Positions 57,170 through 60,826 of a stretch of 64,000 nt of DNA are shown piece after piece. The notes under the pieces are model-generated. The model saw only the letters and a list, made by a program, of their open reading frames with translations, ran no database searches and was not told the DNA's origin. Source of the stretch: Methanolobus profundi (GTDB lineage Archaea > Halobacteriota > Methanosarcinia > Methanosarcinales > Methanosarcinaceae); assembly GCF_900114835.1 (NCBI RefSeq), contig NZ_FOUJ01000006.1:1-64000 (forward strand), read 5' to 3'. Position 1 is the stretch's first letter; the number at the start of each line of letters is the position of its first letter. The position numbers and the translations under genes are program-made.

Positions 57170-57295
57170 AACCACTGTTCTTACAAGATCATTGTGTCAC
57201 ATCATAAAAGCAATATAGCCTTACCAGTGACCACTATTTAGAACTATATCAAAAGCTAGTCAGTTCATCTTAAAGCATCAAAAAAGAGATTGTGG

Positions 57296-57380
57296 TGCGG
57301 GAGGTGTGATTCGAACACACGAACTCCTACGAGACTAGGCCCTCAACCTAGCGCCTTTGGCCTGGCTGGGCAACCCCCGC
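57296..57380 (-). tRNA. tRNA-Leu (GAG anticodon), copy 1
   Basis: An 85-base class II tRNA. The acceptor GCGGGGG pairs with CTCCCGC (one G-U). The anticodon loop TTGAGGG in stem CTAGG/CCTAG gives GAG (Leu, CUC and CUU codons). CCA is encoded at 57293-57295. It is identical in sequence to the copy 158 bases away. Confidence 0.95.
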
Positions 57381-57453
57381 ACATGATCTGCGAAGAAAGT
57401 AATTTGGTTCGACCTGAAAGGTCCGAAATAATTCATCTATAAGAAGTATCTGG

Positions 57454-57538
57454 TGCGGGAGGTGTGATTCGAACACACGAACTCCTACGAGACTAGGCCC
57501 TCAACCTAGCGCCTTTGGCCTGGCTGGGCAACCCCCGC
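57454..57538 (-). tRNA. tRNA-Leu (GAG anticodon), copy 2
   Basis: Identical to copy 1 over all 85 bases plus the encoded CCA (57451-57453). The spacer between the two copies is not similar to the sequence after copy 2. This copy lies 51 bases past the rpoD stop on the same strand. Confidence 0.95.
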
Positions 57539-57589: not shown

Positions 57590-58384
57590 TCAGAGGGACT
57601 CTAAGATTTGCCCCATCTGGCTGGCTTTCTCCTTAATAGTTGTTCCTGCATTTATAATTAACTGTTGGACTGTGTAAGAACCATCGGATTCCATAGTGAA
57701 AATGAAAGAATTTTCATCTTCTGACACAGTAATTGCATCAATATCACAGACTGATGCACAGAGTTTGCAGAGTATACATTTAAGGATGTCGTCGCCGGAT
57801 ATTTCTGCGCCGTTCGGACCAATGTGAATGATATCTTTTGGACATTCCTTCACACATGCGCCGCACTCGTCACAGTTCTCGAACTTGACAACGGGCATAT
57901 TCTTGTAGCCACATGCCACACCAGCTTGCCATTTAGCATGTTGATGACCATACCCCATGTGGGCAATAGCCTCAAGCACTACTTTCTGGCCTTCCTTCAG
58001 ATCAATGATAGGAATGTTCTGGTCAGCTGGCTGGACGGTCTCATCAGATGAGACAAAGTCGCCCGAATATACCATTCTCGGACCTTCTGCACTGAGGGTC
58101 AGGGATACCTTGCATGCAGGGCATTCTGATCCACATGTGCACTCTTCTACAGGTACGAACTCCTCAATGTTTGTCGTCAAAGGAATAAGGCCAAGCCTTA
58201 AAGCTAACTGCTCATCAAAGAGGACTGACGTATTGTTGTAGATGTTCACATCATCGATAGCAATAGTAGGTACATCGGAGAGCGCTGCCCTCCTTATACC
58301 ATTAGCCAAAGCTGCACTTGCATCTGATAATATGAACTTCGCAGACCTCTCTGACAGCTCAAGTATGTCTACTTCCATTGTCAT
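57590..58384 (-). CDS. rpoD: RNA polymerase subunit D (Rpo3) with ferredoxin domain
   Basis: The archaeal counterpart of bacterial alpha and eukaryotic Rpb3, nucleating polymerase assembly with subunit L. At 264 residues it has the assembly domain with a CxCxxxCxxC zinc site (Cys82, 84, 88, 91), as in Rpb3. An inserted domain with two complete [4Fe-4S] motifs follows (Cys171, 174, 177, 181 and Cys203, 206, 209, 213). Both clusters look intact, which is not so in all archaea. It is the last gene of the S13-S4-S11-RpoD operon. Confidence 0.97.
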   Translation of the reverse strand: MTMEVDILELSERSAKFILSDASAALANGIRRAALSDVPTIAIDDVNIYNNTSVLFDEQLALRLGLIPLTTNIEEFVPVEECTCGSECPACKVSLTLSAEGPRMVYSGDFVSSDETVQPADQNIPIIDLKEGQKVVLEAIAHMGYGHQHAKWQAGVACGYKNMPVVKFENCDECGACVKECPKDIIHIGPNGAEISGDDILKCILCKLCASVCDIDAITVSEDENSFIFTMESDGSYTVQQLIINAGTTIKEKASQMGQILESL

Positions 58385-58405: not shown

Positions 58406-59351
<946 letters not shown>

Positions 59352-59364
59352 AAGATCACCTTAA

Positions 59365-59811
59365 TTATTTCTTCTTGCTTACGCCAATGGTTGAGCCACG
59401 CCTTCCTGTGGACTTTGTTCTCTGACCTCTGACCTTAAGACCTCTCTCGTGCCTGAGACCACGGTATGCCCTAACCTTCTTAAGGTTGTTCAGGTCTTCC
59501 CTGAGGGTCATAATGATATCCTGGCCAAGGAGATGCTTGTCATTTCCGGTAAGTGGGTCTGCAGTTCTGTTAAGCATCCAGGTTGGAAGGTTCTGCTCGA
59601 AATTAGCAATAGCTGTGTCGAGCTTTGCAACATCCTCATCAGAAAGATAACCAATGGTCTCTTTCGGGTCGATACCTGTGCTTTCAACTATAATTCTTGA
59701 TGTTCTGAGCCCTATACCGCGAATACCGGTCAGCGCATACATTACGGGCTGACTACCCTGAAGGTCAGTATTCATGATACGGACTAAGTGTCTTATTTCT
59801 TCATCTGCCAT
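59365..59811 (-). CDS. rps13: Ribosomal protein S13 (uS13)
   Basis: A 148-residue archaeal S13, in the head of the small subunit. Motifs are '[20 protein letters not shown]', '[20 protein letters not shown]' and the basic tail '[18 protein letters not shown]'. It has AAGGAGG as ribosome binding site; this site is also the end of a 22-codon leader ORF whose stop overlaps the S13 ATG. First full gene of its operon. Confidence 0.98.
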
Positions 59812-59879
59812 TATTTTTCCTCCTTAGGGACGCAAGCGCCCTGTAGCCTCGGAACATAGGTCCCGACACACCCCATCAT
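59811..59879 (-). CDS. 22-codon leader ORF coupled to S13
   Basis: From ATG 59879 the minus strand encodes [16 protein letters not shown] and then VPKEEK before TAA, whose last base is the A of the S13 ATG (TAATG overlap). The KEE codons are the S13 ribosome binding site. The promoter TATA (59923-59931) predicts a transcript starting about 59901, so this ORF would begin some 22 bases from the 5' end. It has no ribosome binding site of its own. The same bases can fold into two hairpins (AGGGCGC/GCGTCCCT and TCGGGA/TTCCGA), so the element may act as RNA rather than peptide. Confidence 0.4.
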
Positions 59880-59922
59880 CACAATGGAGCAGGCATTTCT
59901 AAAGATTTTAGAATAACTCGCC

Positions 59923-59931
59923 TGTATATAC
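59923..59931 (-). promoter_or_regulatory. TATA box of the S13-S4-S11-RpoD operon
   Basis: GTATATACA on the minus strand lies about 115 bases before the S13 start and predicts a leader of about 90 bases. Confidence 0.45.
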
Positions 59932-60250
59932 TATCTGTCATATTTAACACTATTGTGCAAACGTAAATAGGAATACAAGTGGACTCTCTCTATAGGTTGA
60001 TCACTTAAATACTTTCCCATATAGGAAAAAGAACATTGTGCCAAAAGATACAAAGGACAATTTTGAAAACAAATGAATGATCAGAAGGAGAACAAGTCTT
60101 CAATTTTATTAAATCTGTGCGCACAACATGAGGACTAGCCACTTGAATCCATAAAGAATTATACATATGAGTATTAATATATAAAAATAGCTAATGGCAG
60201 AAATCACAAATGTTCAGTAGGTATAAATAGGTCAAATTACCAAATATAAA
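59932..60250. other. Intergenic between divergent operons
   Basis: An AT-rich spacer between the ribosomal operon promoter and the PEF-CTERM gene. A TATA box for the rightward gene lies at 60221-60231 (GTATAAATAGG). A 21-codon frame at about 60072 has no ribosome binding site and is not called. Nothing else is seen. Confidence 0.4.
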
Positions 60251-60325: not shown

Positions 60326-60826
60326 ATGAAGAAATTAGTATTAGTTGCAATAGTAGCTATGATAGCTTTGGTAGGAACCGCTAGTGCTAACTACGGAGCT
60401 GACCTTGCCGACAGTAGTGGAGTTATTCTGCCACTGACAGTTTCCCAGGTCGTTGGAACTCCAGTAGATTACAGCATTATATTAAGTGATTTTACCGGAG
60501 AGACCGTATATTATACCATAGGATTCAATGATACAGGATTGGACGTGCAGATACTCAAACAAGGAACATATGTCAATGCTGCTAGTTTCACAGACTATGA
60601 TATTGTACGCGTAACAATTGAACCTGGCGCACAACAGGGTGATCAATTCAGTGCAAGGATCGATGTTTGGAAAGATGATCCATCACAAGTAATAAGATCA
60701 GTTACATTCTGGGCATCTGCATCACAGAACTTTAACGCACAGATTCCAGAGTTCCCAACAATTGCACTGCCAGTAGCTGCAATACTCGGTCTTGCATTCT
60801 TCATGCAGCGCCGCAAGGAAGAGTAA
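60326..60826 (+). CDS. PEF-CTERM surface protein
   Basis: A 166-residue exported protein. A cleavable signal peptide ends at about residue 21 (after 'VGTASA'). The mature domain (22-138) is beta-rich ('GETVYYTIGFNDTGLDVQIL', 'VRVTIEPGAQQGDQFSARID'), reminiscent of a small Ig-like or jelly-roll domain but not assigned. The C-terminal PEF-CTERM signal starts at about 140: 'IPEFPTIALPVAAILGLAFF' then basic residues, the typical archaeosortase target. A run of G's forms the ribosome binding site. The strong site suggests an abundant surface protein. Confidence 0.9.
   Translation: MKKLVLVAIVAMIALVGTASANYGADLADSSGVILPLTVSQVVGTPVDYSIILSDFTGETVYYTIGFNDTGLDVQILKQGTYVNAASFTDYDIVRVTIEPGAQQGDQFSARIDVWKDDPSQVIRSVTFWASASQNFNAQIPEFPTIALPVAAILGLAFFMQRRKEE

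Follow-up and report, generated by a model that had tools for sequence, protein, structure and literature searches.

We investigated the region upstream of a ribosomal protein operon in Methanolobus profundi (Halobacteriota; Methanosarcinia; Methanosarcinaceae), within a window of 64,000 nucleotides, meaning the whole stretch of DNA that was analysed (positions 1 to 64,000 of contig NZ_FOUJ01000006.1). Four genes are read from the minus strand: S13 (uS13; 59365..59811; NCBIfam uS13_arch, 1.4e-61), which is the first of the operon; S4 (uS4; 58791..59351; uS4_arch, 4.3e-60), the presumed ligand discussed below; S11 (uS11; 58406..58789; arch_S11P, 3.1e-63); and RNA polymerase subunit D (57590..58384; PRK00783, 5.8e-104). 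The NCBIfam matches for all four genes bear out the order S13-S4-S11-RpoD that had been proposed from the sequence. Directly ahead of S13, and on the same strand, lie a short reading frame (59811..59879) and a conserved structured RNA leader (59819..59890), which share most of their bases.

Two features of the surrounding region were additionally observed. A tandem pair of tRNA-Leu(GAG) genes follows RpoD on the minus strand (57293-57380 and 57451-57538), and this arrangement is present too in three of the related loci (L001, L011 and L028). On the plus strand, a divergent ORF of 166 aa (60326-60826) has a signal-like N-terminus and a PEF...hydrophobic...RRK tail, presumably as in an archaeal sorted surface protein.

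The short reading frame ahead of S13

The original prediction, made from this sequence, offered two readings of the leader: a 22-codon peptide whose translation could be coupled to that of S13, or a folded RNA with two hairpins. The frame exists as claimed, running on the minus strand from ATG 59879 to a TAA at 59813-59811 that overlaps the S13 ATG at 59811, and the S13 ribosome binding site (GGAGG, 59823-59819) lies within it; an upstream GTG at 59882 would lengthen it to 23 codons. Such an ORF does not exceed chance expectation: 97 ORFs of at least 20 aa, in six frames, overlap the surrounding 6.5 kb.

We compared the frame with 24 other genomes of the same genus, some of which have identical leaders. 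The homologous ATG is kept in four of these, the phase in seven and a TAA at the stop in 17, and all three are kept in two only (L082 and L086), whose frames read MSECVETVFRGYRTHASLRRNN and MSECVETYVSGLQDHVSLRRNN, with an internal frame change and other residues. No homologous peptide was kept across 62 leaders that include other genera, and the 22-codon peptide had no Pfam match. Translation of a short leader peptide coupled to S13 is accordingly rejected as very improbable, despite the open frame and its TAATG overlap in the window: the frame is broken in 22 of the 24 same-genus genomes, the two others encode different peptides, and other genera have no equivalent. The frame looks like an accident of sequence, and we judge it non-coding. 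The Shine-Dalgarno sequence is kept where the frame is broken, which tells against the peptide, but the stems are also conserved, so that the alternative of an RNA element survives.

Three tandem hairpins at the S13 Shine-Dalgarno

Relatives fetched with S13 comprised 80 loci from genome contigs, the closest being from Methanolobus, together with 30 from a set of 40 related genomes. From Methanosarcinaceae and ANME-2-like members we took 71 leaders, of which 62 remained after the removal of nine exact duplicates. Nearly all of the 62 leaders show one pattern, consisting of a hairpin, GUG (or GCU, GCG), a hairpin, GGCUAC, a hairpin, UAAGGAGG and the S13 start. The unit used for our covariance models R1, R2 and R3 extends from the first hairpin to the Shine-Dalgarno sequence (P1-P2-P3-SD), and scores 63.7-65.9 bits in the window's own genome, where it is present in single copy, all further matches having E=2.7 or worse. 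Its elements follow one another, 5' to 3', as P1, a G-Y-K/GGC extension of P2, UAY, P3, GGAGG and the S13 start. The two hairpins of the original prediction are real and number at least three, and perhaps four.

The first hairpin, P1 (59870..59890; GCTCCAT/ATGGGGT), directly abuts the first G of the G-Y-K motif in 68 of the 69 leaders aligned with R2. In the window this motif is GUG (59867..59869), and it stands opposite GGC at 59848-59846, forming an invariant G-C pair, then U-G or C-G, then G-G (or U-G). Across the 69 leaders, the first G faces the C of GGC without exception (69/69), the second position is divided between C-G (34), U-G (34) and U-A (1), and the third is GG in 51, UG in 16, and UA and CG in one each. 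The motif encloses P2 (59849..59866; TCGGGAC ctat GTTCCGA), and the 3' part of this extension runs into the conserved UAY linker to give GGCUAC (59843..59848). The C and the U are found in 69/69 leaders, the A in 65/69 with four gaps, and the base after U and A is C, U or A. The third hairpin, P3 (59827..59842; AGGGCG cttg CGTCCC), has a variable position at its base (AC 37, GU 19, AU 6, CC 1, gap 6), with G-U found in other genera, and from these sequences A-C and G-U look like interchangeable wobbles. The S13 Shine-Dalgarno GGAGG (59819..59823) follows, with GGAG in all 69 rows; the UCC of P3 at 59830-59828 is predicted to be able to pair alternatively with its GGA.

A possible fourth hairpin, P0 (59891..59924, minus strand; inner stem TTCTAAA/TTTAGAA), is predicted by folding. 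It shows little covariation because it is nearly invariant among close relatives, and it may lie outside the transcript. We additionally noted by eye a motif GC(C/G)(A/G)AGU that recurs 5' of P1 in many Methanosarcinaceae leaders (at about 59910-59924 here), and that may be a promoter element or part of the RNA.

We next consider the covariation. Model R1, built on seven hand-chosen leaders, matched 57 of 86 sources and none of 21 S13 loci that title and S13 identity place outside the class. Within the class it missed eight loci (L030, L036, L038, L039, L042, L049, L106 and L109), the first six of which were later recovered by R2, as was the genome of L109 (as L157). R2 was run on 69 sources picked as known or likely carriers of the element, leaving out near-duplicates (e.g. 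L035, L083, L084, L097, L104 and L159), the poorly placed L022 and L025, and L157, and matched all 69. The 57 R1 rows, of which 55 are distinct, have 90.1% of their cells paired and changes on both sides in 17 of 21 pairs, with a covariation score of 0.455 against at most 0.154 with slid partners; in the 69 leaders the corresponding values are 88.6%, 17 of 21, and 0.426 against 0.058-0.150, both alignments having been fitted to the structure and so being biased towards it. By helix, pairing amounts to 88.0% of cells in P1 (4/5 pairs changed on both sides), 91.4% in P2 including G-Y-K/GGC (8/9) and 84.7% in P3 (5/7). A plain MAFFT alignment of 21 leaders, which was not fitted to structure, gave for P2 and P3 97.2% paired cells (95.7% for P2), 9 of 12 pairs changed on both sides, and a score of 0.485 against at most 0.190 for slid partners; this check was limited to these two helices because MAFFT misplaces P1 when loop lengths differ. 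The free energy of the window leader alone gave a weak signal (z -2.06 and -1.50), indicating a fold only mildly stable for its composition, so that the case rests on covariation. The compensatory changes in the stems, together with class-wide conservation beside S13, strongly support the folded RNA of the original prediction. As judged by this comparison of sequences, the leader bases fold into three hairpins in tandem, with the S13 Shine-Dalgarno at the 3' end, and this structured RNA is conserved and covaries.

The element is presumably transcribed as part of the operon mRNA. The start site originally predicted, 22 bases upstream of the short frame, would fit a TATATA at 59930-59925. In an alignment of 22 same-genus leaders we also identified a conserved AT-rich block, TTAAATA, at about 59947-59940, and a further block, GGGAAAG-TATTTAAG (about 60003..60018, minus strand), that by eye is kept in most of them. 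Of these AT-rich blocks, GGGAAAG-TATTTAAG looks most like a BRE/TATA promoter. A start from it would imply a 5' UTR of about 170-180 nt, which would fit the long 5' UTRs, of 165 nt on average, described for ribosomal-protein mRNAs of Methanolobus psychrophilus (PMC5378194).

Such long 5' UTRs suggest that structured leaders may have a general use, and the structure might act on the stability or processing of the mRNA, or on translation efficiency in general (or in a temperature response), without any specific protein ligand. We consider this improbable, as the invariant G-C pair, the K-G position and UAY exceed the needs of a plain stabilising hairpin, and as the element precedes one operon only.

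Distribution of the leader across archaea

We identified the element throughout the family. R2 matches were found in 100 of 111 family genomes at E<=1, although the match in G055 (E 0.336) is not credible, and that genome has no S13 match. S13 itself was found in 100 of the 111, and 98 of these have an R2 match; the other two (G066 and G067) contain what by eye are degenerate versions of the leader (L171 and L172). Across the class, 175 of 237 genomes match at E<=0.1, a count that includes some chance matches, such as L146. We take the matches at L146, L163 and L164 as chance, because S13 is absent there.

A survey of the phylum with model R3, using an even draw of 392 genomes and a threshold of E<=0.001, gave matches in 73, made up of 72 of 83 class members and one of 309 others, where the split between class and non-class was read from the genome listing, taken as kinship-ordered. 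The single match outside the class (E 9.5e-4) has no S13 nearby and is taken as chance. For 67 of the 73 matches an S13 row could be paired; each of these is located upstream of S13 on its strand, no more than 41 nt from the S13 match in 65 cases. The other two, at 216 and 228 nt, belong to genomes of family f5, in which S13 has a long N-terminal extension that begins just after GGAGG. The remaining five class matches adjoin S13 as well, so that 72 of 72 class matches are situated beside this gene. In other families, 16 loci have a start codon for S13, in frame, 6-12 nt after GGAGG.

The element is recognisable by eye in several genomes of family f7 that R3 missed or that were outside the draw (L173, L178 and L179), and family f3 seems to be without it (L106; L175-L177). 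We identified lineage-specific changes at the 3' end of the leader, P3 being lost or replaced in families f4, f5 and f7. In f5, P3 is gone, and GGCUAAAGCC directly follows P2 in most members; in f7, its place is taken by a stem that includes the Shine-Dalgarno sequence, e.g. CUCCAGA-cuu-UCUGGAG in L147.

Two differences in S13 itself were noted in these families. An extension of about 70 residues, rich in Lys and Glu, stands between the leader and the conserved part of the protein at five f5 loci (L151-L154 and L156), and at f7 and f4 loci (L147-L149, L157 and L158) the apparent S13 start codon, 6-12 nt downstream of the leader, is TTG instead of ATG. Separately, in 20 of 29 outgroup S13 loci scanned (L043-L080), a tRNA-Ser ends within about 150 nt of the S13 match (19 with anticodon GCT and one with GGA; the in-class L050 is excluded from the count). 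The RNA leader occupies the place of this tRNA-Ser in the class, and one locus, L037, has both a tRNA-Ser(GGA) and the leader.

A putative regulatory leader of the S13 operon

No family of Rfam 15 matches the leader; the sole gathering-level match in the window is a tRNA, and the three matches that Rfam gives at E up to 10 do not include an alpha-operon family. In the main texts of open-licence articles in PubMed Central, we found no RNA element described for the S13 operon of archaea, and neither "Methanosarcina" nor "methanogen" was found in the main text of Weinberg 2010. According to Eckert and Weinberg 2020, only a handful of archaeal cis-regulatory RNAs have been confirmed or even predicted (PMC7247131).

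The leader is a covarying RNA with invariant non-helical bases, present once in the genome, at the Shine-Dalgarno of a single ribosomal-protein operon, which leads us to read it, with a probability of roughly 0.6, as a cis-acting r-leader of S13-S4-S11-RpoD that answers to a protein of the operon. A compact RNA of three hairpins with such bases beside the Shine-Dalgarno could also suit a small-molecule riboswitch, but the sole operon that would be regulated encodes ribosomal proteins and an RNA polymerase subunit, and no Rfam riboswitch matched near its cut-off, making this scarcely credible.

For r-leaders of multi-gene operons, it is customary to guess the ligand from those established in other systems (PMC7247131). 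Among the genes of this operon, S4 is the one for which r-leaders are known in bacteria, one of them situated on the S13 ribosome binding site (PMC7247131, PMC10931766), and by this analogy we hold S4 to be the ligand at slightly short of even odds. The leader of the E. coli alpha operon lies before a corresponding operon (S13, S11, S4 and RNA polymerase subunit), at the same site on the rpsM ribosome binding site (PMC10931766), but it forms a pseudoknot, whereas the Methanolobus leader is predicted to form tandem hairpins, and nested hairpins account for the covariation observed in the 69 leaders. Bacterial S4 r-leaders of Firmicutes, Fusobacteria, Clostridia, Bacteroidia and Flavobacteria also precede S4 operons, and include several mutually unrelated structures (PMC7247131); the Firmicutes and Fusobacteria types share a conserved GUAA that is not among the conserved bases here. 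Among archaea, the r-leaders listed for S15 (Halobacteria, Methanomicrobia), eL15 and L4 are likewise covarying, with ligands assigned from gene context, but all sit in other operons, none of those listed being before S13/S4 (PMC7247131). Archaeal L1 is described as controlling the translation of its own mRNA by feedback (PMC10931766), and L7Ae likewise acts on its own mRNA. Our preferred reading makes the leader the archaeal equivalent of the alpha-operon leaders of bacteria, though structurally unrelated to them.

This class-wide element precedes an operon whose E. coli counterpart is the classic case of S4 feedback, and, if it answers to S4, two domains of life would have arrived at the same feedback by way of unrelated RNAs. 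The genetic tractability of Methanosarcina makes the leader directly testable.

We also considered resemblance to rRNA. When R2 was run with filters off on the window organism's own 16S and part of its 23S, nothing rose above chance, the best match (7.0 bits, E=0.15) being on the antisense strand. The GGCUAC of the leader occurs three times in the 16S, where it is one of 40 6-mers seen at least three times, and we dropped it as an rRNA mimic. The same RNA might answer to S13 or S11, or to the pair of them, rather than to S4: S13 is the first gene behind the leader in every case compared, and GGCUAC is present in the 16S as CCAGGGCUACACGC, in a part that we take to be situated near S13. The lack of a significant model match to rRNA and the frequency of such 6-mers, however, weaken this case, in bacteria the ligand is poorly predicted by the first gene (PMC7247131), and we regard a ligand of this kind as unlikely. 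The sites of L1 on its mRNA resemble its site on 23S rRNA (PMC10931766), in contrast to the S13 leader, for which the model search of 16S and part of 23S showed no such mimicry; local mimicry of a motif may nevertheless be present.

Returning to S4 as the preferred ligand, we infer protein binding and repression along the following lines. An operon protein, most likely S4, when in excess over 16S rRNA, would bind the core of P1, P2 and GGCUA; the bound leader would block small-subunit initiation at S13; and the whole operon would be turned down through coupling. In many members a UCC just 5' of GGAGG can pair with it, and binding may favour this Shine-Dalgarno hairpin over P3. More broadly, we tentatively propose, with rather less confidence than an even bet, that the class around Methanosarcina controls S13-S4-S11-RpoD by an S4-responsive leader that is independent in origin of the bacterial alpha-operon leaders, with a core of P1, the G-Y-K/GGC mismatch helix and UAY, and with a 3' module, open to exchange between families (P3 in the Methanosarcinaceae, in f7 a hairpin with the Shine-Dalgarno), that would set the ribosome binding site on or off.

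The predicted anti-Shine-Dalgarno stem differs between lineages. Each of the 14 Methanolobus-like leaders has a stem of 3 bp; among ten Methanosarcina-like leaders, nine have one of 3-5 bp; and the stem reaches 5-7 bp in the four leaders of f7 and in one from f4. A universal switch by Shine-Dalgarno sequestration is thus unsupported, given the 3 bp of the Methanolobus-like leaders against the 5-7 bp of f7. A stem of only 3 bp makes a steric block, or entrapment of the ribosome on the folded leader, more likely in Methanolobus, and the on/off device probably differs between families.
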